Source of the DNA: Thermoanaerobaculia bacterium | GTDB lineage: Bacteria; Acidobacteriota; Thermoanaerobaculia; Multivoradales; JAHEKO01 | DNA length: 64,000 nucleotides | Direction of reading: 5' to 3' | NCBI GenBank assembly: GCA_945787635.1 | Contig: CALZIK010000113.1 | Span: 1 to 64,000 of the forward strand | Part shown: positions 19,923 through 54,596 of the stretch, piece after piece | Layout of the letters: each line of letters begins with the position of its first letter | Numbering within the stretch: the stretch's first letter is position 1 | Translations under genes and position numbers: made by a program | The notes under the pieces: model-generated | The model's input: the letters and a program-made list of their open reading frames with translations, nothing else | Told to the model about the DNA's origin: nothing | Databases searched by the model: none

Positions 19923-21341
19923 TTAGCCGGGGATTCTGATCGCTTTCTTGCCAACCGCTACGTTGTTGTCTCGGCGCAGATCGTAGTTGGCCTTGGCGTC
20001 GTCGACCACGGCGGCGAGGTAGTACCGGCCGGGTTCGAGGTTCGCGGGAAGCCGGGTCTTCAACCGGAGGGTCTTGCGCTCTCCGGAGCCCAGCGCCGGC
20101 AGGGTCGCTTCACCGATCCAGATCGCTTCGCGAGTGAGTCCCCTCACCTGGGTGAGGTAGACGCTGAGCTGAGTCGTCCGCGACCGCTCGGAGCTTCTAT
20201 TACGGATCTTGATGACCGACCGGAGCCTGTCGGCCGCAAGGGTGGTCGGCGACTTCGCCTTGACGCGCACCGCCTCGAGATCGACGATCTTCGGTGAGGT
20301 GAGGATGGTCTCGAGGATCGGGGCTGTTTCTTCTATGTCGATGTCGCCGCCGGCTGGAACATCGGCGGAAAACACGACCACGAGCTCCTGGCCCGGCAGC
20401 ACCATGATCGCCTGACCGCCGTAGCCGCTGGCCGAGTAGCCGCGCAGATGGTGCAAGCGAGGATCCGCGAAGGTGAGCTCGAAGAACGCCGGCCCATACG
20501 TCCACCACATGTAGCCGTAGCCGCGTCCGGGAATCCCCGTGGTTGAATGGGTCTGGACGCTCTCTTCGATCCAGTCCGGGGGGAGGATCTGTCGATCGCC
20601 CCAACGCCCGTTCTGCAGCAGGAGCTGCCCTAAGCGAGCCCGATCGCGGGGGGACATCCTGAAGGTGTAGCAGGGGTGCTCCGAAAGGACCACCTCATAG
20701 AAGTACTCGCACGAGCTCGGAACGAAGTCCTGCATGCCGATCTTGCGTGCGATCCTCGAGTTGAACTCCTCGAAGATGTCGCGCCCGGTCTGCTCGCGGA
20801 AGATGGTCCCGAGGGCGTTGAAGTCCCAGTTGTTGTAGTACCAGAATGTTCCGGGGAGATGTGATCCACGCGCCGGGCGGGCGTCTTTCATCGACTGCGC
20901 TTCGCAGGCGGCTTCGATGTAGATACCCGAGCGGGCTCGGAGCAGGTCGACCACGCGCGCCTGTTTCTCGGTGGCGGTGAGAGGCACGAGGTCGTCGATG
21001 CCGAGATCGGTCAGGGTGGCGTGGAGGTCGAGGTTGCCCTTGTCGACATGAATGCCGTAGAGGGCGCTCAGAAAGCTCTTACGCATCGAGTGGCACCAAT
21101 AGGGATAAGTCTCGCTGCCGAAGGATGCCAGCACCCTGCCCTTGTAGACCAGAAAGAACGACGCGACCGGGGCGTCCGGCAGGGCTTGCCAGGCGCGCTC
21201 GGCGGCGGCGACGGCCTGGGAGGAAAAGCCCGCTTCTTCGGGCGAGCTCCAGCGGGGCCAGTCCTGGCCGGTCGCGGCGAAGCTGACCGCCAATAGAAAG
21301 GCCAGAAAAGCGAAAGTAGGGCGCATTGGGCGCTCGTTCAT
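19923..21341 (-). CDS. Serine beta-lactamase-fold hydrolase with C-terminal CARDB-like domain
   Basis: 472 residues from ATG 21341, with AAGGAGACAGGT upstream. Signal peptide to about residue 25. The class C beta-lactamase/DD-peptidase fold is shown by SxxK as SMRK (Ser85, Lys88), YxN as WYYNN, and SGYGGQAIMVLPGQELVVVF near the position of the third motif. Such proteins are often esterases or peptidases rather than antibiotic resistance enzymes. Residues about 350-472 form a separate CARDB/Ig-like domain (VIKIRNRSSERSRTTQLSVY, ALGSGERKTL, LEPGRYYLAAVVDD), probably for adhesion or protein contact. Periplasmic or surface exposed. It is divergent from the DUF2807 operon. Substrate unknown; resistance should not be inferred. 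Confidence 0.85.
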   Translation of the reverse strand: MNERPMRPTFAFLAFLLAVSFAATGQDWPRWSSPEEAGFSSQAVAAAERAWQALPDAPVASFFLVYKGRVLASFGSETYPYWCHSMRKSFLSALYGIHVDKGNLDLHATLTDLGIDDLVPLTATEKQARVVDLLRARSGIYIEAACEAQSMKDARPARGSHLPGTFWYYNNWDFNALGTIFREQTGRDIFEEFNSRIARKIGMQDFVPSSCEYFYEVVLSEHPCYTFRMSPRDRARLGQLLLQNGRWGDRQILPPDWIEESVQTHSTTGIPGRGYGYMWWTYGPAFFELTFADPRLHHLRGYSASGYGGQAIMVLPGQELVVVFSADVPAGGDIDIEETAPILETILTSPKIVDLEAVRVKAKSPTTLAADRLRSVIKIRNRSSERSRTTQLSVYLTQVRGLTREAIWIGEATLPALGSGERKTLRLKTRLPANLEPGRYYLAAVVDDAKANYDLRRDNNVAVGKKAIRIPG

Positions 21342-21519
21342 ACCTGTCTCCTTTCCTCGTAACGCGAGGTTCGAGACAGAACTCCGCATTCGGCCACGCC
21401 AGGCGGTTTGAAAGGGCGGACAGGCCGATTGCGGGCTTCCGGAGAAAACGGCGCGTTTCTCCATGAAGGCCAATCGCCGAGGCGACCCGTTCGACAAGAG
21501 AAATAAAGGAGGAATCAAG

Positions 21520-23857: not shown

Positions 23858-26419
23858 TTACGCGAGTCGCTGGCGTAGCCAGGCCCGGGCCGCGGCCCAG
23901 TCCGCTTCGACGGTTCGTTTGGACAGACCCAGCTGCTCGGCGACCTCCTCGACGGTCAGGCCGCCGAAAAAACGCTGCTCCACGATCAGCGCCTGCCGAG
24001 GTTTCTCGGCCGCCAGCTCTTCCAGGGCGGCGTCGAGGCTCAGCAGCTCGTCGAGACCGAGATCGTGGCCTCCGTCGGGAGTCAGGCCTTCGAGCAAGGT
24101 CACCTTCTGGACGTCACCGCCGCGCTTCGAACGAGCATGAGCGCGGGCATGGTCGATCAGAAGCCGACGCATCATCTTGGCTCCGACGGCGAAAAAGTGG
24201 GTGCGCCCGGCCCAGTCGACCCGGCTCTGCTCGGCGAGACGCAGGTAGGCCTCGTGGACCAGCGCCGTGGGTTGCAGGGTGTGGCCGGGCCGCTCGCGGG
24301 CGAGGAATCCTCGGGCCAGGCGCCGCAGCTCGTTGTAGACCAAGGGCAGAAGTTCGTCGGCGGAGGGGTGGGTGCTCGCTCCGTCAGCGCCTCTCCGGGC
24401 CTCGGCAGAGTCGTCTCGCAAGAGCTCGGCACCGGTCTGAGTGAGTACCGCCGCCGAGTGCTCCGGCGCCCGGCCTTCTGGTAGCAGCCGCTCCAAGCGC
24501 GACCGCAGCTCGGCCGCGGTCGCGACTCGCCGCAGCCGGTCCTTCTCCAGACAGGAGAGGATGATGCCAGCGAGGGTGGCAGAGAGGTCGGCGACGATAT
24601 CGCGAGGGTCGGGCGGCGGCTGGCTACGATGAAGCTGCAGAAGCTCACCGGCGCTTTCGCCGCGAAACGGGCACCTTCCCGTGGCCATCTCGAACAGCAC
24701 GACGCCCAGGGAATAGAGATCGGATCGTCCGTCCAGCGTCTCGAGGCGAGCCTGCTCGGGAGACACGTAGTTCGGCGTGCCGAGAAACACGCCGGCGGTG
24801 GTGACCCCCGGCCCTTCGAGCAGCCGAGCCAGTCCGAAGTCGGTCAGGAGGGGCTCGCCACTCTTGTCGAGGAGGACGTTCTGCGGCTTGATGTCGCGAT
24901 GGAGGACGTTATGAGTGTGGGCGGCGTCTAGAGCGGACGCCAGACGGGCGCCTACGAAGGCGACCCGGTCCTCCGGCAATGGCGCTTCCCCGGATATCTC
25001 CTCGGCGAGGGTGCGTCCCTCGACCCACTGCATGGTCAGGTAGGCTCGATTTTGAAACTCGCCCAGGTGGTAGAGCCGCAAGATATTGGGATGGCCGAGG
25101 TTGCGGGAAAGGAGAATTTCCTGGCGGAAACGCTCGAGCACAAGACGGTTGCCGGCGTACTCCTGGCGCAGCAGCTTGATCGCGATCCGGGTCTCGAGGA
25201 GCCGATCGCGGGCCTCGTAGACGACTCCGGTGGCGCCTTCGCCGACCTTGCGCTGGAGCTCGTAGCGGCCGTCGAGCACCGAGGGCTGTGCCGGCCAGAG
25301 CAGGGTCGACACCCGGCTGGGGTCCGCAGTGGCGAGGTTCGAGCCGTCCCCTCCGGCGGGGCCTCCCAGGCTCGTGCCTCTGGGCTTGAGATCGGTCAGC
25401 CAGCGGCGGAAGAAGTAGTTGGCCAGGATCACGCGGCGGTCTTCGTTGCGACTGATGAACCCGAGATTGCCGAGGTTCTGGAGCGCGCTCTGGAGGGGCG
25501 CGGCGTCGAGCGCCAGATCCGCCTCGAGCGAGGCGCTGGCTGCTGATTGGTCACGGGCGACGGCTCGGAGGATGTCGCGTTCGACCTCACTGAGCATGTC
25601 GAAGTCGACCGAGAAGAAGTAGCTGACCATCTGATCGGCCGCGACCTCCTCGATCGCTTGGTCGAGATCGCCGGTTTCGAGCGACCGCTTGGCGACGAGC
25701 TGGAGCAGATAGGGGTGATTGTCGCAGCGCGCACACAGGCGCTCGACGTCCTCGGCCTCGAAGCGGGGGCGCGCTTCGACGGGAAGTTGCTCCTGGCGAA
25801 CCAGCGCGCGCGCGTCGTCGCTCGACAGGACCTTGATAAAGAGCGGCGGGCTGAAGCCGTGTAGAAACGGCGACGTGTCACCGCGCTGATCGGCGAGCGC
25901 CCACAACCGGATGGTCGATGCGAGGATCGAGCGCACGTCTTGCGAAGAGAGCATCGCGTGGCGCAGCTTGCGCAAGAGAGCCGGGTCCTTCTGGTCGAGC
26001 CCGATCAGCTCTTCGACCTCGTCACAGAGCAGGAGGAGCTTGAAGCCGCGGGCGCGGAGCGTGCGCCGCAAACGGGCCATAGAAGTAAAGAGGTCGTCGG
26101 ACAAGAACTCGGCGGCGGTCAGGCCGAAAGCGTCGAGCCGGTCCTCGGTATCCAGGAGCGCCTCGGCGAAACCGGTGTGAAGCTCTTCCGGCTCGTCGGC
26201 TCCCTGCAGGTCCCAGAACAGCGGCAGGTAGCGAGCTGGCGATTCGGCGGCGCTCAGGCGCTCGAGCTGCTTCAGGAGCGAGGTCTTGCCGACGCGGCGG
26301 GTGCCCAGCACCCAGAGCGCGTCGCGCGGTCCGTTCAGGGCCTCGTCGATGAGGCGGCGACGACCGTAGAAGCGTTCCCCTCGGACCCACTGGCCGATGA
26401 CGAAAGGAACCGAAATCAT
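23858..26419 (-). CDS. Fusion protein: P-loop ATPase, Ser/Thr kinase and ECF sigma factor
   Basis: 853 residues in one uninterrupted frame. Residues 1-340 are a STAND/AAA-type ATPase: Walker A GTRRVGKT (39-46), DLQG (70-73), Walker B LLLLCDE (Asp133, Glu134), then a helical/winged region to about 340. Residues 385-645 are a Hanks-type kinase: glycine loop GEGATGVV (393-400), Lys415, HRDIKPQN (507-514), DFG (527-529), GTPNYVSPEQ. All catalytic residues are present. Residues about 685-853 are a PF07638-type ECF sigma factor: region 2 ELLPLVYNELRRLARGFL and ALVHEAYLRLAEQ, region 4 VEQRFFGGLTVEEVAEQLGL with SKRTVEADWAAARAWLRQRL. No membrane segment, so cytoplasmic. The start overlaps the stop of the TPR-ATPase gene by 4 bases. 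Phosphorylation of an ECF factor by a kinase is known from Vibrio EcfP/PknT; here it could be intramolecular. ATPase oligomerisation as the switch is inference. Confidence 0.93.
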   Translation of the reverse strand: MISVPFVIGQWVRGERFYGRRRLIDEALNGPRDALWVLGTRRVGKTSLLKQLERLSAAESPARYLPLFWDLQGADEPEELHTGFAEALLDTEDRLDAFGLTAAEFLSDDLFTSMARLRRTLRARGFKLLLLCDEVEELIGLDQKDPALLRKLRHAMLSSQDVRSILASTIRLWALADQRGDTSPFLHGFSPPLFIKVLSSDDARALVRQEQLPVEARPRFEAEDVERLCARCDNHPYLLQLVAKRSLETGDLDQAIEEVAADQMVSYFFSVDFDMLSEVERDILRAVARDQSAASASLEADLALDAAPLQSALQNLGNLGFISRNEDRRVILANYFFRRWLTDLKPRGTSLGGPAGGDGSNLATADPSRVSTLLWPAQPSVLDGRYELQRKVGEGATGVVYEARDRLLETRIAIKLLRQEYAGNRLVLERFRQEILLSRNLGHPNILRLYHLGEFQNRAYLTMQWVEGRTLAEEISGEAPLPEDRVAFVGARLASALDAAHTHNVLHRDIKPQNVLLDKSGEPLLTDFGLARLLEGPGVTTAGVFLGTPNYVSPEQARLETLDGRSDLYSLGVVLFEMATGRCPFRGESAGELLQLHRSQPPPDPRDIVADLSATLAGIILSCLEKDRLRRVATAAELRSRLERLLPEGRAPEHSAAVLTQTGAELLRDDSAEARRGADGASTHPSADELLPLVYNELRRLARGFLARERPGHTLQPTALVHEAYLRLAEQSRVDWAGRTHFFAVGAKMMRRLLIDHARAHARSKRGGDVQKVTLLEGLTPDGGHDLGLDELLSLDAALEELAAEKPRQALIVEQRFFGGLTVEEVAEQLGLSKRTVEADWAAARAWLRQRLA

Positions 26420-28851
26420 GTGGCGCCTCGGCTGTCCGGATCGCCGATTTCCTCGACGTCGGCCACCGAGATGGAGCTGCGCTTCAGCTCATAGGCGCGA
26501 CTGATCAGCTTCATGCACAGCCTCTGGATGCGGTAAGGGCGGCCTTCGGTGAGCTCGACGATGCGCTCGACGACATCGTCCTCGAGTTGAAAAACGCCGC
26601 GGATCGGCTCTTCGACCAGCTCTCGCGCATGCTCGGGCGTGAACGGCCCGACGTCGATCTCCTCGAAGAAGTTGTACCAGGGGCTGCCTTCGCGATCCCA
26701 TTCGCGCTTGATCGCGACGCCCGAAACCACTGCCACGAGTTCCTCGGCGAAACTCTTCATGAACAGGCTCCGCAGCTTCTGGTTGACTTTGGGGTCGTAG
26801 TCGTTGAGTTCATCGACCTCATCGATCAAGAGCACCAGGCGAACGCGCTTGTCGGTGTGCGCGCGCAGGGTTTTGAGGATGGCGCGTAGATCGGCGACCA
26901 GATTGCGGTAGGAATACGCAGTCGAAAACGGCGCACTCGGCTCGAGCCCCCCGAGAGCCGGGGCCAGCTCGTCGAAGATCTCTTCTCCCAGGGTTGCGAA
27001 GAAATGCTCTTCACGAGTGCCCTGCAAGTCGATGTAGACCGGAAAGAACTCATAGGCAGGGTCTTCCAGGGCTTCGAGCCGTTTCTTGAGTTGGTGCTGG
27101 AGCGAAGTCTTGCCGATCCGGCGTTCGCCGTGAAGGAGCAGGCTGTTGTTGTGGAGCGTCTGGAGAATGCGCTCGAGAAGCTGTTCGCGGCCGAAGAAGA
27201 GCTTGCCGTCGAGGACCGGCGCGCCGGCCATGTAGGGATTGAAGCGGCGTCGGCGCAGACGGAGCCTGCGGCGCGCGCGCACGGTGAGAAGGGCACCCGC
27301 GGCCACCGCGAGTAGAGCGGCCAAGGCGCCGTAGAACCAAGCCGCGCGGAAGAACGGTTTCAAATAGACGACCGTGTACTCGGCGCTCGAAGTCAGAGTC
27401 TCGGCATCCATGGCGACCAGGCGAAGCGTGGTCACCCCGGGCTCGAGGCTGTGCGCGAGCTGGAACTCGGTGATGTAGAGATCACCCAGGGGCTGGCTTG
27501 AGGCCGAGACCGCCAGCGGATGATCGTCTGATGTAAGGAGTTCGACGGTGACCGCGGAATCGTCGATCACGACCCCGGTCAAGCGCAGTTTCGGGCGGCG
27601 CACGAGTTCGGCGAACCCGCCGTCTTCGAGCTCCTGGCGTCGGTCGGCGAATCGGATGGCGGGAGGAAAATTCTGCCGTGGGGAAGTCCCCAGTAGGCGC
27701 CGGTTAATCGCCCGGTAGGCGCGCGCGAGCTGGTCCAGAGCGGTCTCGTTGCCGGTGTCGATGGCCAGGACGCGGTTGGCGGACGCGAGGGAGTCTTCGA
27801 ACTTCGCGGCGGCGAGCGCCGTTTCGGCTGCGGCCAGAAACTCGTTGACCGCTTCGCTTCTGAGGCGAAGCTGCTCCGCCTGCGCCTGTTGATCGAGTAG
27901 CGTCCTCTCGAGCGAGCGCACCTCACTGTTGGTCGGGTCGAGGGTGAGGAGAGGTTGGAGCTGCCCGAGCGCTTCCTCGATTCGGCCGGCATCGCGGAGC
28001 GTGACAACCTCGGCGAGACCCCGATCCACCGAGCGTGAGCGTTGCTCGCCCTGAAGCTCGGCCCGCAGCCGGCGCTCGGCCTGATCGAGAAGCGCGCGCG
28101 CCTCCGAGTTTTCCGCCAGGTCCAAAGCCTGCCGCAGCACGCTCGAGGCCTCGGCGAGACGATCCTTACCGAGCAGATCACGACCGCGACCGACCAGTCC
28201 GGACACGCGCTCTCGCTGCTCTTCCTGCGCTTGCTGATCCGCCAGCTCGGCTCGCAGGCGTTGCAGCACTCCCAGCGCGCTCTTGTCGTCGGGCGAAACC
28301 GCGAGCGCTTGTCCCAAGGCGGCGATGGCGCCTTCGGCGTCGCCCGCGCTCTCGAGCCGCGCGGCTTCGGCCAGGCCGTACTGGACCACGCGCTGGATCC
28401 GAGCGGCCTCTTCTTCGGCCCTTGATCTCTGCGCTTCGAGCGCCAGACTCCGATACCGTTCCAGCTCGGCGCGATCCGGCGCGGACTGAGCGATGGCCCC
28501 CAGCCGCTCTTCGGTCTCGAAGGCCTGGAGCGCGGCGTCGATCCGCCCGAGCTCGTAGTAGGCGATGCCGAGCTTCAGATACGGGAAGTAGGCGGTGAAC
28601 TTCATTCCGTAGGTGCGTGCCCGCGCTCCGGGGTCACCCTTCTTTTCGAGTGCGTTGTTGAGCTCGTCGATGGCTGCCGACCACTTCGCCTCGGAGAGAG
28701 CCTTCTCGGCCGCGGCGTAGTGCTCGTACCAGAGGTCGGCGAAGACCGGATCGGCAAGGGTGAGGACCCCGGCCAGCATCAGAAGGCTCGATCCGATTGC
28801 AATGGACTGCCGGGCCTGTTTGAGCATGTTCTTGCGATCCGCGCCTTGCAT
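26416..28851 (-). CDS. Inner-membrane TPR-type sensor with cytoplasmic P-loop ATPase
   Basis: 811 residues from ATG 28851, which shares one base with the upstream stop; ATG 28827 is an alternative. Residues 9-38 are a signal or first membrane helix. Residues about 40-385 are TPR-like helical repeats (AEKALSEAKWSAAIDELNNA, YYELGRIDAALQAFETEE, ALGQALAVSPDDKSAL, LQPLLTLDPTN). A beta-rich segment follows (about 405-500). One membrane helix lies at about 506-528 (YGALAALLAVAAGALLTV) with a strongly basic flank RARRRLRLRRRRF, placing the C-terminus in the cytoplasm. Residues about 540-811 are a STAND-like ATPase: FFGREQLLERIL, Walker A GERRIGKTSL, DLQG, Walker B LVLLIDEVDEL. This ATPase resembles the one in the downstream sigma fusion, with the same DLQG motif. 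It likely relays a periplasmic signal to the fusion protein. Confidence 0.88.
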   Translation of the reverse strand: MQGADRKNMLKQARQSIAIGSSLLMLAGVLTLADPVFADLWYEHYAAAEKALSEAKWSAAIDELNNALEKKGDPGARARTYGMKFTAYFPYLKLGIAYYELGRIDAALQAFETEERLGAIAQSAPDRAELERYRSLALEAQRSRAEEEAARIQRVVQYGLAEAARLESAGDAEGAIAALGQALAVSPDDKSALGVLQRLRAELADQQAQEEQRERVSGLVGRGRDLLGKDRLAEASSVLRQALDLAENSEARALLDQAERRLRAELQGEQRSRSVDRGLAEVVTLRDAGRIEEALGQLQPLLTLDPTNSEVRSLERTLLDQQAQAEQLRLRSEAVNEFLAAAETALAAAKFEDSLASANRVLAIDTGNETALDQLARAYRAINRRLLGTSPRQNFPPAIRFADRRQELEDGGFAELVRRPKLRLTGVVIDDSAVTVELLTSDDHPLAVSASSQPLGDLYITEFQLAHSLEPGVTTLRLVAMDAETLTSSAEYTVVYLKPFFRAAWFYGALAALLAVAAGALLTVRARRRLRLRRRRFNPYMAGAPVLDGKLFFGREQLLERILQTLHNNSLLLHGERRIGKTSLQHQLKKRLEALEDPAYEFFPVYIDLQGTREEHFFATLGEEIFDELAPALGGLEPSAPFSTAYSYRNLVADLRAILKTLRAHTDKRVRLVLLIDEVDELNDYDPKVNQKLRSLFMKSFAEELVAVVSGVAIKREWDREGSPWYNFFEEIDVGPFTPEHARELVEEPIRGVFQLEDDVVERIVELTEGRPYRIQRLCMKLISRAYELKRSSISVADVEEIGDPDSRGAT

Positions 28852-29234
28852 CAGAAGCTGTAGATCGCCGAGAGAGAAGCCGTGTCCCTGCGCTCCGAGA
28901 GGTCCACGCCGAGATCGATCTGGAGCCTGTCGAGGGCTATGCCGAGACCGGCGGCCAGATGTATTTCGTTCGCACCCGGAACGGCTTCCGCTTGAGCGAA
29001 CGGTCCGGGGTCTGACTGTTGCGCTGAGTGATCGGGATCGAGCCAGGCTCCTAGACGGGCGGCCACGACCGCGGAGCCGGCGAAGAAGGCGTATTCGGCG
29101 CCGAGATGAATCTCGTTCGTGTCGTCGACCGTGGTCAAGACCTGGGCTTCAAGAATCGCCGGCGCAAGAGCGGTGAGTGTAATCGCCAGGGTGAAGAAGT
29201 GAGCGTGGGGCCGAGGTGCCGTGGTGAATGACAT
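28851..29234 (-). CDS. Mini outer-membrane protein, copy of the C-terminal barrel segment
   Basis: 127 residues from ATG 29234, which follows the stop of the larger barrel gene by 13 bases. Signal peptide of about 30 residues (FFTLAITLTALAPAILEAQ). The mature 95 residues closely match the last 95 residues of the upstream barrel: HLGAEYAFFAGSA, RLGAWLDPDH, and LDRLQIDLGVDLSERRDT ending in ASLSAIYSF. It holds only about four strands, so it cannot form a full FadL barrel alone; it may oligomerise, complement a barrel or act as a soluble decoy. It has its own signal peptide, ribosome site and place in the operon, so it is more likely functional than a remnant. Confidence 0.78.
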   Translation of the reverse strand: MSFTTAPRPHAHFFTLAITLTALAPAILEAQVLTTVDDTNEIHLGAEYAFFAGSAVVAARLGAWLDPDHSAQQSDPGPFAQAEAVPGANEIHLAAGLGIALDRLQIDLGVDLSERRDTASLSAIYSF

Positions 29235-29247
29235 CGAAGCCCTGACC

Positions 29248-30585
29248 TCAAAAACTGTAGATGGCCGAGAGCGACGCCGTGTCGATGCGCTCTGAGAGAT
29301 CGAAACCCAGATCGATCTGGAGGCGCTCGAAGGCGATGCCGAACCCGCCGGTGAAATGCAGCTCGTCTTCGCCCGCGGGCAGGATCGCTGCAAGAAAAGA
29401 TTCCTCCACTGGGTTCGCCTCGCTACGGATCTGGTGGTCCGGGTCGTGCCAGATGCCCAGGCGAACGGCGAGCAGCGAGGTGCCGGCGAAGAAGGCGTAC
29501 TCGCCGCCGAGATGGAGCTCGTCCGCATCGTCTAGGACGTCCCCTTCGTCGCGCTGCTGGGGAAGAAGGCTCTCGAGGAAGGCGGAGTACTCGATCCGCC
29601 TCCACTCGAGCGCTCCGGTCCAGCGGCCGTCGCGGGACCGGTAGGCTGTTCCCAGAGCGTAAACTTCGGGAAACGAGTAGGTCACTTCGAAGCCGTCGAC
29701 AAACCGGACGCCGGCCGGAAAATCGGTGTTTGCCGGGCCGGCCTCGAGGCCCAGCTGGTAGTTGAGATCGGCGCCCTGCCGGTACAGCCCGCCCAGGTTC
29801 CATTTCTCCGCCATCCGCCACAAGAACCCGGCGGTAAGGCTCCACTCGGGCCTGTCTGCCTCCAGCGAAACAACCTGCTGCAAGCGTTCGGGCAAGAAAG
29901 ACGCCGCCGCGAAGCCGCTCTCGGCCGTGTCCTCGTCCGGGAGATAGTCCCAGCCGAGGAGGAGGATGCTGGGATCCAGATGGGACAGGCCGAGACCGAA
30001 GCTCAGCCGGTCACCGGCGCGGAACCCAAGTGCCAGCCCCCGGGTGAGAATCTCGAGGTCGATTCGGCTCGTTTGGATCTGGGACCGCAAGTCACCGGGG
30101 ATTCCGGGCAGCGTGCCGAACAGCCCCTGCGTCTCGAGACCGAACTCGAAGTTCGCCAGCTGATGCCGGAAGAACGCCAACGCCCAACGCTTGCGAGGGT
30201 AGACGAGGGAAACGTAGGAGAGCCCGGTAAGGTCCGCTGCGGATACCGATCGCTGGGGCACTGCGACGGTGTCGATGCCCCGACCGGTGGGCTCTCCGGA
30301 GGCTCGGCCGCCGCTCGTGTAGGGCGTCGAGTAGCGCCAGGATCGTCCTTCGACGGAGACCTCGGGCTCGGCGATCTGGATGAGTCCGGCCGGATTGGCA
30401 AAGGCGGCGGTGGCGTCGTCGGCCAGGGCCACGAAGGCTCCGCCGAAGCCGAGGCTCCTTGCGCCGGGGTTCGAGAAGCTGAACTCCAGACTCGTGATGG
30501 CTTGCGCGCTCACTTCGGGCGATCCGATCACGCACATCAGACACACCACCAACGTGGCGCGCACTTTGCGAGCCCGAGGAGTCAT
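29248..30585 (-). CDS. FadL/OmpP1-like outer membrane protein
   Basis: 445 residues from ATG 30585; upstream codons in frame are antisense to nothing useful and lack a signal peptide. Signal peptide ends near VSAQ (about residue 29). The N-terminus FSFSNPGARSLGFGGAFVAL followed by ADDATAAFANPAGLIQIAEP is the hallmark of the FadL/OmpP1 (Toluene_X) and PorV-like families, where this segment forms the hatch. The remainder is beta-barrel, ending in TASLSAIYSF. FadL proteins carry hydrophobic compounds across the outer membrane; PorV-like relatives handle secreted proteins. It sits between a lipoprotein gene and the mini-barrel, TPR-ATPase and kinase-sigma genes, so a sensory role is possible. Related to the product at 31544-32863. 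Confidence 0.87.
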   Translation of the reverse strand: MTPRARKVRATLVVCLMCVIGSPEVSAQAITSLEFSFSNPGARSLGFGGAFVALADDATAAFANPAGLIQIAEPEVSVEGRSWRYSTPYTSGGRASGEPTGRGIDTVAVPQRSVSAADLTGLSYVSLVYPRKRWALAFFRHQLANFEFGLETQGLFGTLPGIPGDLRSQIQTSRIDLEILTRGLALGFRAGDRLSFGLGLSHLDPSILLLGWDYLPDEDTAESGFAAASFLPERLQQVVSLEADRPEWSLTAGFLWRMAEKWNLGGLYRQGADLNYQLGLEAGPANTDFPAGVRFVDGFEVTYSFPEVYALGTAYRSRDGRWTGALEWRRIEYSAFLESLLPQQRDEGDVLDDADELHLGGEYAFFAGTSLLAVRLGIWHDPDHQIRSEANPVEESFLAAILPAGEDELHFTGGFGIAFERLQIDLGFDLSERIDTASLSAIYSF

Positions 30586-30647
30586 GGCTGAATCGACCCT
30601 GGCAGGCGCCGGGCGCATCCTCAATACCCTCAGAGACGGGGACAAGC

Positions 30648-30664
30648 CCACCCCGGCCGGGTGG
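30648..30664 (-). terminator. Hairpin between lipoprotein and barrel genes
   Basis: CCACCC / GGGTGG stem with loop CGGCC in the 115-base gap downstream of the lipoprotein stop (30701). No T-run. It may attenuate rather than end transcription, since the genes on both sides have the same direction. Confidence 0.3.
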
Positions 30665-30700
30665 CCGGAGCGATTCGTCGAGTGTTCCAACCCGTTTGGC

Positions 30701-31384
30701 TCATCCGCGATAGGGGAACTTCTTGGACAGCTTCTTGGTGAGGCCGACGATGACGTCGTTGGCCGGACGGCGCCAGTCGGTCGCTCGGTGCACCTCGACC
30801 TTCCAGAGCATGTCGCCCTCGGGACAGCCAACCAGCTCGCTGTCGACATGGATGTCGTGGGTGCGGGTCAGCCCCGGAGGAATGAGCCAGTCGGTCTTGC
30901 CTTCGGTCGCTCGATGCATGACCTCGAGGCCGACCTCGGTGCCGTACGAAGCGAGATCGGACAGATAACGCTCCTTGACCACCCGGGTCCGGATCACCGC
31001 GTCCACTCCGAGAGTCTCGGCCAGCTCATCGGGCGGCAACGTCCAACTCTCGCGCACTCCGATCTGATTCTCGCTGAGGATGCGATTGGTGGTCTGGACC
31101 GGCTGGATGCGCACCAGGATCGGTTGCTTGCGAGTGGCGCTCGAGCGATCCAGGAGCCGGTTGTAGAAGGCGTGCTGAAACGCTAGGCTCTCGGCTTCTT
31201 CGATGGCCAGGATCTGGCGCGGGCCGACGTCGGCGGGAAGGTTGCCGGTGAAGATCATCTCGAACGGCAGCACGGCGATCGTTTCACGCGCCGCCTCACG
31301 TTCGGCCAGTCGGGGTGACTCGTAGTGGACCGCGGTGCAGGCGGAGAGAATCACCGTCAGGATGAGCAGTCGCTGGGTTTTCAT
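30701..31384 (-). CDS. Lipoprotein with CsgG/LpoB-like N-terminal strand pattern
   Basis: 227 residues from ATG 31384 with AAAGGAGGACGCC upstream. Lipobox ILSAC (Cys16). Mature part: ETIAVLPFEMIFTGNLPAD, then AFYNRLLDRSS, ILVRIQPVQTTNRILSE and LAETLGVDAVIRTRVVKERY. This order (IAVLPF strand, helix, Q-x-x-x-x-L, GVDAVI) is that of the CsgG/LpoB/TolB-N-type and DUF799-like lipoproteins. I do not assign a closer family. The C-terminal part has two cysteine-poor strands (VGLEVMHRATEGKTDWLIPP). Location is the periplasmic leaflet of the outer or inner membrane. First gene of the operon that ends with the kinase-sigma fusion, and divergent from the third barrel gene. Confidence 0.75.
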   Translation of the reverse strand: MKTQRLLILTVILSACTAVHYESPRLAEREAARETIAVLPFEMIFTGNLPADVGPRQILAIEEAESLAFQHAFYNRLLDRSSATRKQPILVRIQPVQTTNRILSENQIGVRESWTLPPDELAETLGVDAVIRTRVVKERYLSDLASYGTEVGLEVMHRATEGKTDWLIPPGLTRTHDIHVDSELVGCPEGDMLWKVEVHRATDWRRPANDVIVGLTKKLSKKFPYRG

Positions 31385-31543
31385 GGCGTCCTCCTTTGCG
31401 GGAGTCAAGAGGGCCCGCTTCACCTTGTAACGCGACATTGCGAGTCAATTACCGCAGTCTTATTTGCCCACCCCCTGGGACGGCGCGAGACGCCTACCCA
31501 GGCAGTGGTTGCGCTGCAACGCCGGCCGCGTACCAATGGGCCC
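31385..31543. promoter_or_regulatory. Divergent control region of the sigma-linked operon
   Basis: 159 bases between the start of the lipoprotein gene (minus) and the third barrel gene (plus). On the plus strand TTGCGA (31438-31443), 17 bases, TATTTG (31461-31466) is a weak sigma-70-like promoter. On the minus strand TTGACT occurs but without a convincing -10 at normal spacing, so this side may be read by another sigma factor, perhaps the operon's own. That last point is speculation. Confidence 0.35.
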
Positions 31544-32900: not shown

Positions 32901-33584
32901 GTGTCGAGCCAGCGAATCGTGGTCGTCGAGGACGAGCCCGACATCCTGGAGATTCTGCGATTCAACCTGGAGCGCGAGGGCTATGCTGTCGAGTCCTTCA
33001 CGCGAGGGGACGACGCCTTGGATGCGGTGCGCGGCGATCCGCCGGACCTGCTGCTACTTGACCTCATGCTTCCGGGCGTCGATGGGCTGGAGATCACGCG
33101 GATCTTGAAGCGCGAGCCGGAAACCGCGCGGATGCCTCTGATCATGCTGACCGCCCGAAACGAGGAGATCGACCGCATCGTCGGCCTGGAACTCGGGGCC
33201 GACGACTATCTGGCAAAGCCCTTCAGCCCGCGAGAGGTCGTGCTGCGGGTGAAGGCGGTGCTGCGTCGCGGAGAGGGCACGGCGGAAACGGCCAGCGTGG
33301 TGAGAGTCGGCGAGCTCAAGCTCGACCGCCCCGCTCATCGGCTGTTCGTCGGAGGAGAGGAAGTCACGGTCACGGCCACCGAGTTTCGGCTGATGACCGT
33401 GCTGATGGAGAGGGCCGGTCGAGTGCAGACTCGAGAACAGCTCCTCTCAGACGTCTGGAAGTACGCCGAGAACGTCGACAGCCGGACAGTCGACACCCAC
33501 GTCCGCCGTCTGCGCAAGAAGCTGGGCAGGGAGGCGTCTCGCATCGAAACCGTGATCGGCCTCGGCTACCGCTTGAAGGCCTGA
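32901..33584 (+). CDS. phoB: PhoB-type response regulator
   Basis: 227 residues from GTG 32901. Receiver domain residues 1-120: acidic pocket VVEDEPD (Glu10, Asp11), phosphoacceptor Asp54 in LLLLDLMLP, Thr in IMLTARNEE, Lys in YLAKPFSPRE. OmpR-type winged helix residues 130-227: FRLMTVLMERAGRVQTREQL, NVDSRTVDTHVRRLRKKLG, IGLGYRLKA. Length and spacing fit PhoB. It is followed after 7 bases by the histidine kinase gene and then by a porin gene with a Pho box, with the pst operon nearby, which supports the phosphate-starvation role. It would bind the boxes at 34876-34893 and 41850-41889. Confidence 0.93.
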   Translation: MSSQRIVVVEDEPDILEILRFNLEREGYAVESFTRGDDALDAVRGDPPDLLLLDLMLPGVDGLEITRILKREPETARMPLIMLTARNEEIDRIVGLELGADDYLAKPFSPREVVLRVKAVLRRGEGTAETASVVRVGELKLDRPAHRLFVGGEEVTVTATEFRLMTVLMERAGRVQTREQLLSDVWKYAENVDSRTVDTHVRRLRKKLGREASRIETVIGLGYRLKA

Positions 33585-33591
33585 GCCAACG

Positions 33592-34863
33592 TTGAGCTTC
33601 GCGAGCCGGACGTTTCTGATGATCTTGGCGGCGGTGCTCGCGAGCCTCGTTCTCTTGTGGTTGCTCACGCCGGCTCGGCCGGCCGGATCCCTGGCCGGGA
33701 CTCTCGCGGCCGCGACGCTGGCGGCGGTCGCGCTCTCGGCAGGCGCGGCATGGCTCGTCGTCCGGTCGGCCGCCGCTCGGCAACAGGCCATCGAGCGAGA
33801 GATCACTCAGCGTGCGGCTGCGAAGGTGGCTGCGGCGGAGGCGGAGACGGAGCAGCTGATGGCGGTCATGGGCGGCATGTCCGAAGGGGTTCTAGTGACC
33901 GATGCCGAGGGTCGGGTTTCGTTCGCCAATCCGCAGTGGCGCCTGCTGTTCGGTCTCACCGGCGATGTCGAAGGCGCCTCGGTGCTCGAGATGAGCCGTC
34001 AAACGGCTCTCGACCAGATGCTCGGCAAGACGCTCGCGAGCGGAGAGTCGCAGCAGATCGAGCTCGAGCTGTCGGACTCCCCGTCCGGCGCTCGGAGCAC
34101 CCTGATTCTGACCAGTGCCTCCTTGAGCGACGGAGAGGGCGCGGTGGTGGTCGCGCAAGACGTGACCGCGGTCTTGCGACTCACCGAGATCCGGCGAGAT
34201 TTCGTCGCCAATGTCTCCCATGAGCTCAAGACGCCGCTGTCGGCGATCCGGGGATTCGCGGAGACGCTGGCGGACGGCCTGGTCGAGGATCCGGAGGCGT
34301 CCAAGGAGTATCTCGATCGCATTCTCAAGCAGTGTCGAAGGCTCGAGGCTCTGCTCTCCGATCTTCTGACGCTGTCCAGGCTGGAGCATGCGGCCGACGA
34401 ACGGCGTCAGGCTCCCATCGACCTGGGCAGGATTCTGCAAGAGGCGATCGAGGTGGTGAACGAGGGGGTTTCCGGCAAGAAGCTGGATCTCGCGGTCACT
34501 GCCCAGCCGATTCCCAGGATCGAAGGCGATGCCACGGCGCTCGAGCGCATGTGCGTCAATCTCCTCGATAACGCGGTCAAGTACAACCGGGAGGGCGGCA
34601 AGATCCAGGTGCGTCTCTTCGAGTCGGGGCGCCGTGTCGTGCTCGAAGTCGAGGACACCGGTATCGGGATCCCGGAGGGCTCGGTCGAGCGCCTGTTCGA
34701 GCGCTTCTATCGAGTCGATAAGGGGCGCTCCCGGCAGGAGGGAGGGACCGGCCTCGGCCTCGCGATCGTCAAGCATGCAGCGCATCTTCACGGTGGGACG
34801 GTGGAAGTCGACAGCGAGCTCGGCCGTGGCTCGCTGTTTCGCGTTCTGTTGCCGGTGGACTGA
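33592..34863 (+). CDS. phoR: PhoR-type sensor histidine kinase
   Basis: 423 residues from TTG 33592; ATG 33619 is the alternative, and neither has a strong ribosome site. Two N-terminal membrane segments (MILAAVLASLVLLWLL and LAAVALSAGAAWLVV) with only a short loop, so no periplasmic sensor domain, as in PhoR. A PAS domain follows (about 85-190: LMAVMGGMSEGVLVTDAEGR). HisKA: DFVANVSHELKTPLSAIRGF (His210). ATPase: N box LLDNAVKYN, G1 DTGIGIP, F box FERFYRVDKGRS, G2 GGTGLGLAIVKH. All catalytic motifs are intact. It would sense phosphate status through PstSCAB and PhoU. Next to phoB and near the pst operon. Confidence 0.92.
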   Translation: MSFASRTFLMILAAVLASLVLLWLLTPARPAGSLAGTLAAATLAAVALSAGAAWLVVRSAAARQQAIEREITQRAAAKVAAAEAETEQLMAVMGGMSEGVLVTDAEGRVSFANPQWRLLFGLTGDVEGASVLEMSRQTALDQMLGKTLASGESQQIELELSDSPSGARSTLILTSASLSDGEGAVVVAQDVTAVLRLTEIRRDFVANVSHELKTPLSAIRGFAETLADGLVEDPEASKEYLDRILKQCRRLEALLSDLLTLSRLEHAADERRQAPIDLGRILQEAIEVVNEGVSGKKLDLAVTAQPIPRIEGDATALERMCVNLLDNAVKYNREGGKIQVRLFESGRRVVLEVEDTGIGIPEGSVERLFERFYRVDKGRSRQEGGTGLGLAIVKHAAHLHGGTVEVDSELGRGSLFRVLLPVD

Positions 34864-34875
34864 GCTCCAGAGCAC

Positions 34876-34893
34876 CTGTCACCCGCCTGTCAC
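34876..34893 (+). promoter_or_regulatory. Pho box upstream of the porin gene
   Basis: CTGTCACCCGCCTGTCAC: two perfect CTGTCAC half-sites separated by four bases, i.e. an 11-base period as in the classical PhoB box. The stretch after it (ATCGGCGTCG) is nearly identical to that after the pstS Pho box (AGCGGCGTCG), so the -10 region probably begins about 10 bases downstream of the box (TCGATT). Confidence 0.85.
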
Positions 34894-34997
34894 ATCGGCG
34901 TCGCTCGATTGAACGGCCACCCCTCTAGGTTACGAATGACCGGGCCGCATCCTAGGCCTGATCATTCAAACAACGAATCACAGGGAGGCCGTTGCAC

Positions 34998-36161
34998 ATG
35001 CTTAAAGGCTGTTTCACGGGCGCGGTTGCCGCGCTGGCGCTAGGCGGGGTCCTCGCTTCTCCGGTTTCCGCGGGGATCAAGGTCTTCGAGGACGGCGACA
35101 AGTTCGTCGAGATCGGGGCGCGCCTGCAGCTCCAGTACATGAGATCGGATCCCGATGGGGGCGTGGCGACGGACGACTGGTTTTTTCGCCGTCTGAGGCC
35201 CTACATCTCGGGTAGCGTCACCAAAGACTGGGTCGGGAAGTTCCAGTTTGACCTGGGGAAGTCGAGCGGCGACAACGAGGTCGCCGTCAAAGACGTCTAT
35301 ATGGCGTATAAGGGTTGGAAGAACCGTACGCTATACATCGGCAATACCAAGACGGTCTTCTCGCGCGAGTTCCTGACTTCGTCCAAGCGCCAGCAGATGA
35401 TCGAGCGCAGCTTCGTTGGGGATCACAACTACGGCGCGCCCGATCGTCAGCTCGGCATCCGTCTGGACGGGATGAACGAAACCAAGAAGATCGGCTGGAA
35501 GGTCAATATCGGAAGCGAGTCGGTTGATCCGGATGCCAAGAAGCTCGATTTCGATTCCCCAGCCAACCGCGACTCCGACTTCAACGACGGCACCGTCATC
35601 GCGGCTCGGGTAGACATCAATCCTCGGGGTGAGATGAAGCTCGATCAAGGCGACTTTCACAGCGAGGAGGGCAAGTTCAGCGTCAGTCTGGCCGCCTTTG
35701 ACTGGGCCAACGACGATGACAACAACACCTATACCTCGGGTGGCGCTTCGACCTCCTCATCGAAGGCGGACGTCGACAGCGCCAAGGGTTACGAGATTTC
35801 AGCCGGCTATCGCGGGAAGGGCTTTTCGATCGACGGGCAATACAACCTGATTGACGCCGACACCGTGGATCGGGGTTTCACCGGCGGCCTGTACCGCAAC
35901 GGTACGACCGCTATCGACACCTTCGCGCTCGAAGCGGGCTACATGCTGGCCGACAACCCGATCGAGCTCGTGCTCGGCGCCGAGAGCCTGGATGCGGACA
36001 ACTACTCTGACTCCTGGAACCGCAATTCGGTGGGGATCAACTACTTCATGAACAAACACAAGGCCAAAATTCAGTTCACTTATCGGATGAGCGAGAACCT
36101 CGACGGCGTGCGAGGGGCGGATGAGGTCGAGGCATTCGTGCAGTTTCAGTTCGTCTTCTAG
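34998..36161 (+). CDS. OprP/OprO-like phosphate-selective porin
   Basis: 387 residues from ATG 34998 with GGGAGG upstream; a TTG at 34992 is in frame but inferior. Signal peptide to about residue 25 (AVAALALGGVLASPVSA). Mature N-terminus KVFEDGDKFVEIGARLQLQY and FFRRLRPYISGSVTKDWVGK followed by FQFDLGKS are the signature of the Porin_O_P family (PF07396). VKDVYMAYKGW and LYIGNTKTVFSREFLTSSKR follow it. C-terminus ends QFQFVF with a terminal Phe. Such porins form trimeric anion channels for phosphate or polyphosphate. The Pho box 105 bases upstream supports phosphate-starvation control. Lies downstream of phoR and converges with the pst operon. Confidence 0.9.
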   Translation: MLKGCFTGAVAALALGGVLASPVSAGIKVFEDGDKFVEIGARLQLQYMRSDPDGGVATDDWFFRRLRPYISGSVTKDWVGKFQFDLGKSSGDNEVAVKDVYMAYKGWKNRTLYIGNTKTVFSREFLTSSKRQQMIERSFVGDHNYGAPDRQLGIRLDGMNETKKIGWKVNIGSESVDPDAKKLDFDSPANRDSDFNDGTVIAARVDINPRGEMKLDQGDFHSEEGKFSVSLAAFDWANDDDNNTYTSGGASTSSSKADVDSAKGYEISAGYRGKGFSIDGQYNLIDADTVDRGFTGGLYRNGTTAIDTFALEAGYMLADNPIELVLGAESLDADNYSDSWNRNSVGINYFMNKHKAKIQFTYRMSENLDGVRGADEVEAFVQFQFVF

Positions 36162-36182
36162 AAAGCGGGCTCGACCGAACCC

Positions 36183-36253
36183 AGGACGGTCGACAGGGGC
36201 GTCGACCGCTACAACCGGAGGAGGACGGTCGACAGGGGCGTCGACCGCTACAA
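36183..36253. repeat. Intergenic palindrome family 1, two tandem copies
   Basis: Two identical 32-base copies (36183-36214 and 36222-36253) separated by 7 bases. Each holds the perfect palindrome CGGTCGAC-AGGGGC-GTCGACCG followed by CTACAA. They fill the gap between the convergent porin and pstB stops and could terminate or stabilise transcripts from both sides. Same family, opposite orientation, as 16671-16772. Confidence 0.88.
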
Positions 36254-36261
36254 ACCTGGGC

Positions 36262-37056
36262 TTACCCGTACTTGCCTTCGATGTAGTCGGCCGTTTGCTG
36301 ATCCTGGGGAGTGACAAAGAGCTCTTCTGTCAGCCCATGCTCGATCACCTTGCCGAGGAGCATGAAGATGCACTCGTTGCTGGCGCGGCGGGCCTGGGCC
36401 ATGTTGTGGGTGACGATGAGGATCGTATAGTCGCCGGCGAGGCGCCAGAGGAGCTCCTCGACCGCCTCGGTCGCTTCCGGGTCGAGAGCCGAGCAGGGCT
36501 CGTCCATCAGGAGCACCTCGGGCTTGACCGGCAAGAGCCGAGCGATGCAGAGCTTCTGCTGTTCCTCGAGCGAGAGGCCGGTGGCCGGCCCGTCCAACCG
36601 ATCCTTGACCGAGGACCAGAGCAGAACCTCGCGCAGGGCCTTCTCGACGATCTCGTCCCGATCGGACTTCGAAAGCGTCCGAGCGTCGGCTTCGTGCAGC
36701 CTGTAGCCGAACAGGACGTTGTCGCGAATCGACAGAGGCAGCGGATTTGGGCGCTGGAAGACCATGCCGACCTCCTTGCGCACCTGGACCAGCTCGTTGG
36801 CGGGCGCGAAGATGTCGTGACCCAGGACTTCTATCTTCCCGGTCGTCCGGACGTATCCGAGCCGCTCGATGATCCGGTTGACACTCCTCAAGAAGGTCGA
36901 CTTGCCGCATCCCGACGGCCCGATGAGTGAGGTGATGATTCCGGGCTTGATCTCGAGATCGACGTCGAAGAGGGCCTGAAACGTTCCGTACCAGAGATTG
37001 AGCTTCTCCGTACGGATAGCCGGGGTTCCGGGTGGAGCCTGGTAGCGGTCAGCCAA
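36262..37056 (-). CDS. pstB: Phosphate ABC transporter ATPase PstB, signature motif degenerate
   Basis: 264 residues. Walker A GPSGCGKS (46-53), Q-loop GMVFQRPNPLPLS, Walker B VLLMDEPCSALDP and H-switch ILIVTHNMAQARR are all canonical for PstB. The ABC signature, LSGGQQQRLCIAR in normal PstB, is here LSLEEQQKLCIAR: the two glycines that contact ATP across the dimer are replaced by Leu-Glu. Its start overlaps the stop of the other pstB gene by 8 bases, so the two are coupled and most likely form a heterodimer. Last gene of the pst operon. In that dimer this subunit would supply a good nucleotide core but a poor signature. Confidence 0.9.
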   Translation of the reverse strand: MADRYQAPPGTPAIRTEKLNLWYGTFQALFDVDLEIKPGIITSLIGPSGCGKSTFLRSVNRIIERLGYVRTTGKIEVLGHDIFAPANELVQVRKEVGMVFQRPNPLPLSIRDNVLFGYRLHEADARTLSKSDRDEIVEKALREVLLWSSVKDRLDGPATGLSLEEQQKLCIARLLPVKPEVLLMDEPCSALDPEATEAVEELLWRLAGDYTILIVTHNMAQARRASNECIFMLLGKVIEHGLTEELFVTPQDQQTADYIEGKYG

Positions 37057-37864
37057 AGCGTCCCTCTAGATAGCCGAGCGTCCGCTGATCGCGGACCTTG
37101 CCCTCGAAGAGCTCGGCGGTTTCGCCGACCTCGACCAGCTCGCCGGAGAGCAGGAACGCGGTCCGGTCGGAGAGTCTGCGGGTCTGCTGGACGAGATTGG
37201 TCACCAGGACGATCGTGATCTCGTGCTTTAGCTCCTTCAGAACGTCCTCGATTCTCATGGTCGTCACCGGATCTACGGCGATCGAGAACTCGTCGAGAAG
37301 CAAGAGGTCCGGGTCTTGGGACAGAGCTCGCGCGATCGTGAGCCGTTGCTGCTGGCCCCCGGAGAGAAGACTCCCGAGAGAGTCGAGGCGATCCTTGACC
37401 TCTTCCCACAGCGCCGCTCGGGTCAAGCAGCGCTCGACGATGATGTCGAGCTCCGACCTTCGCTTGATGCCGGCGAGTCGCGGCGCCAGAGCGACGTTGT
37501 CGTAAACCGAGAGCGGCAGTCCGACCGGAAGCGGAAAAACGACCCCAATCCGCCGCCTCAGGGCGTAGACGTTTTTCCACCGCTGGATGTCATGACCGTC
37601 GATCTTGATGGTTCCGGTCACGTTCATCCCGGGCGTGAACATGTCCATGCGGTTCAGGGCGCGCAGGAACGAGGTCTTGCCGCTGTTGGCCGGGCCGATG
37701 ATCCCGAAGATCTCGTTCTCGTAGATATCGAAGCTGACTCCGGACAGGATCTTCTTCCCGCCGTAGTGGATCGAGAGGTCCTGAACTTCCACGAACGGCG
37801 GCGTGGGCTCGGTCTGGACGCGAGCGTTGGATGCGCTCGCCGTGACGGGCGTTTCGGCTACCAT
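37049..37864 (-). CDS. pstB: Phosphate ABC transporter ATPase PstB, Q-loop and H-switch degenerate
   Basis: 271 residues. Walker A GPANSGKT, signature LLSGGQQQRLTIARAL and Walker B LLLLDEFSIAVDP are intact. The Q-loop, normally VVFQxPNPFP, reads VVFPLPVGLP (Gln to Pro). The H-switch, normally VTHNMQQ, reads VTNLVQQ (His lost). A 25-residue N-terminal extension precedes the first strand. It overlaps pstA by 7 bases and the other pstB by 8. Its defects mirror those of its partner: good signature, poor catalytic loops. The pair would thus have one canonical and one degenerate ATP site, as in asymmetric ABC exporters. Confidence 0.88.
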   Translation of the reverse strand: MVAETPVTASASNARVQTEPTPPFVEVQDLSIHYGGKKILSGVSFDIYENEIFGIIGPANSGKTSFLRALNRMDMFTPGMNVTGTIKIDGHDIQRWKNVYALRRRIGVVFPLPVGLPLSVYDNVALAPRLAGIKRRSELDIIVERCLTRAALWEEVKDRLDSLGSLLSGGQQQRLTIARALSQDPDLLLLDEFSIAVDPVTTMRIEDVLKELKHEITIVLVTNLVQQTRRLSDRTAFLLSGELVEVGETAELFEGKVRDQRTLGYLEGRFG

Positions 37865-38727
37865 TTCTTGCGGCCTCGCAGGTAGGTGCGAAACGCGATC
37901 GAGAGCGCGTTCATGGCTAGAACCATGCTGATCAGGACCAGGGCGACTCCGAAGGGCAGCTCCTCAGGAACTCCCGGAACCTGTGTGGAGATTACGAAGA
38001 GATGGAGAGACATCGCCATCGTCTGGTCGAAGACGCTCTGCGGTAGAAACGGCAGGAAGAACGCTGCGCCGGTGAACATGATCGGAGCGGTCTCGCCCGC
38101 CGTGCGGGAGACCTCGAGAATCACGCCGGTCAGGATGCCGCTCACTGAATTGGGCAGCACCACGCGCCGAATCGTCTGCCAGCGCGTGGCGCCCATATTC
38201 CAGCAGGCCTCGCGGAAGGCGAACGGGACCGACTGCAGGGCTTCTTTGGTGGCCACGATAACGACCGGCAGGGTCATCACCGCCAGGGTCAAGCTGGCGG
38301 CGAGAATGCTGGTTCCGAAGCGGAAGAACAGCACGAAAGCGCCGACGCCGAACAAAGCGTGGACGATCGACGGCACGCCGGCCAGATTGATGATCGCGAG
38401 GTTGATGATCCGGGTGAGCCAGTTGTCCGAAGCGTATTCGCTCAGGTAGAGCGCGGCGGCGATGCCGATCGGTACCGAGGCCAACAGCGCGACCACCACC
38501 AGCCAGACGGTTCCCACGAGAGCCGGCAGGATGCCGCCGGCGGTCATCCCGTTGGTGGGCTCGGTGAGCAGGAAATCGACCGAGATCATCGGCCCGCCGC
38601 GATAGACGAGGATGCCGAGGATCAGGACGACCGGGATGATCAGCATCGTCGCCATCCACAAGAACAGCATCCGAACCAGCCGCTGATTGCGCCGGTTCTT
38701 GTGATTGAGCTCGGTGGGGGCGAACAT
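37858..38727 (-). CDS. pstA: Phosphate ABC transporter permease PstA
   Basis: 289 residues with six predicted membrane segments, the first near residues 20-42 (LFLWMATMLIIPVVLILGIL). Domain matches PstA: GGILPALVGTVWLVVVALLA, IGIAAALYLSEYA, VPSIVHALFGVGAFVLFF. The EAA coupling loop that docks to PstB is KEALQSVPFAFREACWNMGA. Followed by VVLPNSVSGILTGVILEVSR with TAGETAPIMFTG. Sits 3 bases after pstC and overlaps pstB by 7 bases. Forms the inner-membrane channel with PstC. Confidence 0.93.
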   Translation of the reverse strand: MFAPTELNHKNRRNQRLVRMLFLWMATMLIIPVVLILGILVYRGGPMISVDFLLTEPTNGMTAGGILPALVGTVWLVVVALLASVPIGIAAALYLSEYASDNWLTRIINLAIINLAGVPSIVHALFGVGAFVLFFRFGTSILAASLTLAVMTLPVVIVATKEALQSVPFAFREACWNMGATRWQTIRRVVLPNSVSGILTGVILEVSRTAGETAPIMFTGAAFFLPFLPQSVFDQTMAMSLHLFVISTQVPGVPEELPFGVALVLISMVLAMNALSIAFRTYLRGRKKW

Positions 38728-50961: not shown

Positions 50962-50978
50962 GCGCCGGGCACGACGGG

Positions 50979-54572: not shown

Positions 54573-54596
54573 CCAGCGAAAACGAAAGGCCCGACC

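Follow-up and report, generated by a model that had tools for sequence, protein, structure and literature searches.

The window, as we call the whole 64,000-nucleotide stretch of Thermoanaerobaculia DNA that was analysed, carries on its reverse strand a gene whose product joins a STAND-type ATPase, a Ser/Thr kinase and an ECF sigma factor in one polypeptide. The gene before it encodes a predicted membrane receptor, whose stop codon overlaps the start codon of the fusion by four nucleotides (ATGA), and further outer-membrane and lipoprotein genes precede the receptor in what we read as one operon. The features of the locus are as follows.

23858..26419 (-), STAND ATPase - Ser/Thr kinase - ECF sigma factor fusion, 853 aa (ORF from ATG, Pfam/NCBIfam, orthologues)
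25385..26419 (-), STAND-type ATPase by modelled fold, with C-terminal winged helix, residues 1-345 (Pfam, AF2 model, fold and profile matches)
24485..25279 (-), Hanks-type Ser/Thr kinase, residues 381-645 (Pfam; catalytic motifs conserved in 7 genomes; best PDB matches PknB/StkP)
23864..24367 (-), ECF sigma factor of the kinase-linked class (PF07638/TIGR02999), residues 685-852 (Pfam/NCBIfam)
24263..24274 (-), sigma region 2.2 motif QPTA, residues 716-719, with candidate phosphosite Thr718 (invariant in 7 fusions; EcfK/EcfP comparison)
26416..28851 (-), partner receptor, 811 aa, with predicted topology of signal peptide, periplasmic TPRs, one TM helix (about 500-524) and cytoplasmic STAND ATPase (about 550-780)
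28851..29234 (-), shortened remnant of a second FadL-like outer-membrane protein (likeness read from the sequence, not from a Pfam score)
29248..30849 (-), FadL/TodX-like outer-membrane protein, start codon uncertain (PF03349; same order in L050, L052 and L057)
30701..31384 (-), small lipoprotein with lipobox LSAC, first gene of the operon (sequence, locus comparison)

Pfam matches AAA_22/ATPase_2 at residues 29-172 of the fusion, Pkinase at 386-634 (E 1.8e-49) and Sigma70_ECF at 686-852 (E 5.5e-54), and with the NCBIfam match they agree with the domain order that a sequence-only reading of this DNA had proposed. The motifs it had listed are also in place. The ATPase has Walker A GTRRVGKTS at residues 39-47 and Walker B LLLLCDE at residues 128-134, and the kinase has the complete Hanks set of glycine loop, Lys, HRD, DFG and SPE, conserved in seven genomes (GEGATG at 393, HRDIKPQN at 507, DFG at 527, SPE at 553). 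Both regions 2 and 4 are found in the sigma domain, which scores 191.8 bits with TIGR02999 (curated cut-off 126.15) and 183.3 with PF07638 (curated cut-off 21.1).

An AF2 model of the ATPase domain, built on 72 relatives (pLDDT 93), has a P-loop NTPase followed by helical and winged-helix domains, as is characteristic of the STAND fold. In structure it comes closest to the archaeal ATPases 2qen (Z 24.8 over 321 residues) and 2fna; Orc-type ATPases, NLR resistosomes, CED-4 (Z 16.5 over 294 residues) and Apaf-type apoptosomes also match, as does RPP1 (Z 18.3 over 290 residues), and a MalT chain stands among the Foldseek matches. Profile searches returned 2fna, 2qen and 6mfv and reached PH0952, described in the PDB as a tetratricopeptide repeat sensor, which we take to be a STAND protein. 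Residues G39, R41, G44, K45, S47, D133 and E134 are invariant across the 72 sequences. By its modelled fold and its motifs the ATPase is of the STAND type, and the label first given to it from the letters alone can be kept. A full-length AF2 model of the fusion was set aside, as it rested on 7 sequences only and reached pLDDT 50.

Conservation and origin of the fusion

Six further genomes of the family have the same three-domain frame at 66-79% identity, in each case at full length and free of stop codons. A missed stop or frameshift, the circumstance under which the sequence-only reading would have had to give up its 853 unbroken codons, is hence not tenable; with the frame open in seven genomes and the domains constrained, an assembly artefact was likewise rejected. 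Between the window and its same-genus orthologue, dN/dS (Nei-Gojobori) is 0.15 in the ATPase, 0.07 in the kinase and 0.04 in the sigma domain, against 1.05 and 0.28 in the two linkers. Purifying selection acts on the domains and not on the linkers, and the protein consists of three constrained, folded domains joined by stretches that vary more freely.

The kinase-sigma form arose once on the ATPase tree (SH-aLRT 99), beside the kinase forms. A survey of 149 genomes of the class found the ATPase in 24 and the full fusion in seven, and elsewhere in the phylum no kinase-sigma fusion was seen in 396 genomes (four candidates per genome scored, in a draw without other fusion genomes). The fusion is confined to one family while other members of the class are without it, which could be taken to mean that two genes were joined by accident, recently or without any function resulting. 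However, the fusion persists in seven diverged genomes from one origin, its catalytic and Thr residues are invariant and its domains show dN/dS of 0.04-0.15; an accident is so strongly disfavoured by these data that we give it next to no credence.

Candidate phosphosite and promoter element

Where canonical ECF factors have DAED in region 2.2, the fusion has QPTA, with Thr718 invariant in 7/7 fusions, so that the alignment check proposed earlier, for a Thr at the EcfP phosphosite, came out positive. Two ordinary ECFs in the same genome retain DAED. In EcfK and EcfP a Thr at this position of region 2.2 is phosphorylated, providing the charge for RNA polymerase contact and activating the factor (PMC13147305, PMC8103513). 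The ECF43 consensus motif is QTTA and EcfK has QATE (PMC13147305). Because EcfK T51A stays functional, with other linker sites phosphorylated (PMC13147305), Thr718 need not be the sole site. Among the stand-alone sigma relatives sampled, 13 of 14 adjoin a kinase gene, the neighbourhood that the sequence-only reading had named as usual for such factors, and all those aligned over the motif (14 relatives examined) keep an uncharged motif with Thr. No anti-sigma domain was matched in the operon proteins scanned with Pfam, which fits the earlier suggestion that the system works with no separate anti-sigma factor. Judged by sequence, the fusion is a putative kinase-activated ECF factor, in that it has the uncharged Thr motif and its cognate kinase is fused to it; its placement is by the PF07638/TIGR02999 profiles. 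By analogy with EcfK and EcfP, the kinase probably activates the attached sigma factor.

In the window's genome the fusion carries the only intact sigma factor of the kinase-linked class found. The only other is a truncated stand-alone remnant (G000:C129, L170:3612-3902, - strand), which carries the motif NTTA, has lost region 4 and is probably a pseudogene.

Upstream of the lipoprotein gene, in the window and three other genomes whose spacers are dissimilar, we derived the element TRCGG-N17-CGCGTTAC. In the window it is represented by the following sites.

31427..31457 (-), ECF-like promoter element CTGCGG-N17-CGCGTTAC, 42 nt before the lipoprotein start
21359..21388 (-), second exact element, 17 nt before the gene of a secreted beta-lactamase-fold hydrolase (19923-21341)
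21430..21459 (+), weaker element with one mismatch, CGCGTTTC, divergent, ahead of the gene of a secreted DUF2807 protein with its start at 21520

Exact sites number 10 in the seven fusion genomes and 1 in 11 non-fusion members of the family, while the reversed-pattern control gives 4 in each group; four of the ten sites defined the motif, and the other six versus one give p of about 0.04 (by hand). All ten lie upstream of start codons, and the genes behind them all encode envelope or secreted proteins: the operon, a TonB receptor (two orthologues), the hydrolase in the window, and HlyD-type, sortilin-like and DUF4410 proteins. The single non-fusion site is intragenic, inside a 990-aa frame. 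The element is associated with the fusion, and we infer that the fused sigma factor recognises it and autoregulates the operon. Two sites in G001 may serve a stand-alone sigma factor of that genome, and one fusion genome, G006, has no exact site. Only fusion genomes yielded close orthologues of the TonB receptor (62% or more); the exact element is absent upstream of two of the four (G006 and G011), where G011 keeps the -35 part and G006 has at best a three-mismatch match. One-mismatch sites do not exceed the reversed-pattern control in frequency and were rejected as a class, so only exact sites were used. A spacing-16 match (G000:C167) and a match in G007, both inside reading frames, were taken as chance.

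The partner receptor and a proposed relay

While the sequence-only reading had the three domains and the kinase-linked class right, it overlooked the partner of the fusion, the STAND-bearing membrane receptor at 26416-28851. The STAND ATPases of receptor and fusion are paralogues that share about 30% identity, and the gene order lipoprotein, outer-membrane protein, outer-membrane protein, receptor, fusion recurs in L050 and L052. The outer-membrane protein remnant at 28851-29234 (-) is internally shortened and has a full-length counterpart at the same place in both loci. No Pfam family was matched by the small lipoprotein (30701..31384). Adjoining the operon, window positions 32901-38727 hold a PhoB-type response regulator, then a likely histidine kinase gene, and porin-like and ABC genes; at 49726-57737 (+) genes reading as a membrane-fusion protein and two RND pumps stand in a row. 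Primary sensing is probably not the task of the fusion ATPase, and a periplasmic source of the signal is likely.

The pairing extends well beyond this family. Scanning the ATPase alignment against 84,980 species genomes gave 75 named loci in three phyla, and in 64 of them a receptor gene lies near a soluble STAND gene, in 50 of those 64 on the same strand and often with a 4-nt overlap. Most loci without a receptor gene are near contig ends, and three Chloroflexota loci with long flanks also lack one. Most receptors looked at have a TM helix, and the Caldilineaceae receptor scanned has regulator propellers in its outer part. The output of the soluble ATPase may be a Trans_reg_C winged helix, a kinase, a kinase with sigma, sigma alone, or none recognised. 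Since these outputs swap, the ATPase appears to be the constant switch, with a transcriptional output in several forms, and since the fusion ATPase is paired with a STAND-bearing receptor and has relatives with other outputs, the relevant unit is the receptor/soluble-STAND pair. The fusion has a naturally divided counterpart in G010, where one 8-kb contig encodes a STAND protein with the kinase and a second STAND protein with the sigma factor. In G003 a STAND-kinase is accompanied by a nearby, separate sigma gene (motif QTTG).

Several loci have features of their own. In L094/L039 (G010 contig C164) the STAND-kinase gene is apparently split by a frameshift near 4366, and the adjoining STAND-sigma gene is cut by the contig end. 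In L096-L129 (Caldilineaceae and relatives; L096 scanned) the receptor has propellers, a TM helix and a STAND ATPase replacing the histidine kinase, and adjoins a soluble STAND protein of about 445 aa with no output domain recognised. The winged-helix-STAND proteins and receptor genes of L064-L083 (Gammaproteobacteria, Woeseiaceae) are in opposite orientation; at least L064 also has two C-terminal TM helices, so this winged-helix-STAND transcription factor may be membrane-bound.

We would tentatively see in these pairs, and with more doubt than conviction, a general type of signalling across bacterial membranes that spans at least three phyla. Two paralogous STAND ATPases, one on a receptor in the membrane and one on a soluble output protein, would there pass the signal as histidine kinase and receiver do elsewhere, and the plug-in output would be a winged helix, a kinase, a kinase-sigma or a sigma factor. 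The protein in the window would be the member with a self-contained, self-phosphorylating sigma output. The pairing may deserve a class of its own.

For the locus itself we favour, with some confidence, a two-protein transmembrane STAND relay in which the kinase phosphorylates its own sigma domain and the latter autoregulates the operon. Phosphorylation, contact between the STAND ATPases, oligomerisation, promoter recognition and the nature of the signal are the steps that we infer, and they would run as follows. An envelope signal would be sensed by the periplasmic TPRs of the receptor (26416-28851), possibly together with the lipoprotein and the FadL-like outer-membrane protein, and the cytoplasmic STAND ATPase of the receptor would then engage its paralogue in the fusion, a contact suggested by the pairing of the genes and their paralogy. 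The fusion would thereby become active and probably clustered, and the clustered kinase domains could activate each other and phosphorylate the tethered sigma domain at Thr718 of QPTA, in cis or between neighbours. The phosphate would replace the negative charge of the canonical DAED and allow the sigma domain to bind RNA polymerase and to transcribe from TRCGG-N17-CGCGTTAC promoters, that of its own operon included. Several lines of evidence point this way: the invariant Thr of the uncharged QPTA taken with the activation of EcfK/EcfP at that Thr (PMC13147305, PMC8103513); the receptor found beside a soluble STAND protein in 64/75 loci, with exchangeable outputs; the full-length orthologues, single origin and constrained domains; the split in G010 and the TPRs of PknS; the concentration of exact promoter sites in fusion genomes; and the only intact kinase-linked sigma factor of the window's genome being in the fusion.

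The main rival is that the kinase mainly targets other proteins or the receptor, while a conformational change of the STAND ATPase, driven by nucleotide in the manner of MalT-type regulators, would deliver the sigma domain or unmask it without phosphorylation. STAND-kinase forms have no fused sigma factor and usually none in the fetched flank, so the kinase may indeed have other targets; moreover, in relatives the same ATPase drives winged-helix outputs without a kinase, and one protein joins the ATPase straight to sigma with no kinase. That protein, however, shares its contig with an ATPase-kinase protein, the catalytic residues of the kinase are kept in 7/7 fusions, and the sigma domain, lacking the acidic residues for RNA polymerase contact, keeps a Thr at the known phosphosite. 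Unmasking without phosphorylation therefore seems unlikely to us, if worth keeping in view. It might also be supposed that the STAND ATPase is the threshold device of an NLR-like conflict or stress sensor, with kinase and sigma firing a transcriptional defence programme, as its fold is close to NLR, CED-4 and archaeal STAND ATPases and ECF-like domains occur in TRADD-N conflict systems (PMC8195603). We consider this quite improbable: the ATPase is paired with a receptor of the envelope that bears TPRs or propellers on its periplasmic side, the products of the operon and of the candidate target genes are outer-membrane and secreted proteins, and no nuclease, TIR or caspase effector was seen in the genes scanned.

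Comparison with known systems

We class the fusion as a variant of the kinase-activated ECF sigma factors. Like EcfP-PknT of Vibrio and EcfK-PknS of Xanthomonas, it combines a Hanks kinase with an ECF sigma factor that has no DAED and a Thr at the same place in region 2.2, and PknS, the kinase for EcfK, has periplasmic TPRs as the receptor does here; the likeness to ECF43-type pairs is one of motif and kinase linkage. In those systems kinase and sigma are separate and the kinase spans the membrane, whereas here both belong to one soluble protein that is linked to its sensor, as we propose, through two STAND ATPases. No protein with the order STAND ATPase, kinase, sigma was found in the open-licence literature searched, whose coverage is incomplete, in agreement with the sequence-only reading, which knew of none. 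Planctomycete ECFs with kinase or WD40 extensions have been described, so a kinase-sigma fusion as such may have precedents.

Kinase-activated sigma factors are established with kinase and sigma as separate proteins, and here the path from switch to sigma lies in one polypeptide. With a candidate phosphosite, promoter and receptor at hand, the whole chain could be rebuilt with two proteins and one promoter, and an external signal might reach transcription by a route undescribed in the literature searched. If the STAND pair does pass the signal, NLR-like ATPases would be an ordinary bacterial transmembrane relay beside two-component and anti-sigma systems.

MalT, the AfsR/SARP-type regulators and, by fold, archaeal PH0952 likewise join a STAND switch to a transcription output, as do the winged-helix-STAND relatives found here. 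MalT and AfsR/SARP-type STAND regulators sense within the same cytoplasmic protein; here, in contrast, sensing apparently falls to a second protein, the membrane receptor, which has a STAND ATPase of its own, and a kinase-sigma serves as output. FecA-FecR-FecI resembles the present system in outline, with an outer-membrane protein, an inner-membrane receptor, an ECF sigma factor and an operon that includes the outer-membrane protein. However, the FecR-like anti-sigma that defines that system was absent from the operon proteins scanned with Pfam, the outer-membrane protein of the operon is FadL-like and not of the TonB kind, and a STAND/kinase relay would take the place of anti-sigma release. 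Hybrid two-component sensors with regulator propellers offer a last parallel, as the Chloroflexota receptors of the pairing also carry Reg_prop propellers and a TM helix, but with a STAND ATPase in the position of the histidine kinase.
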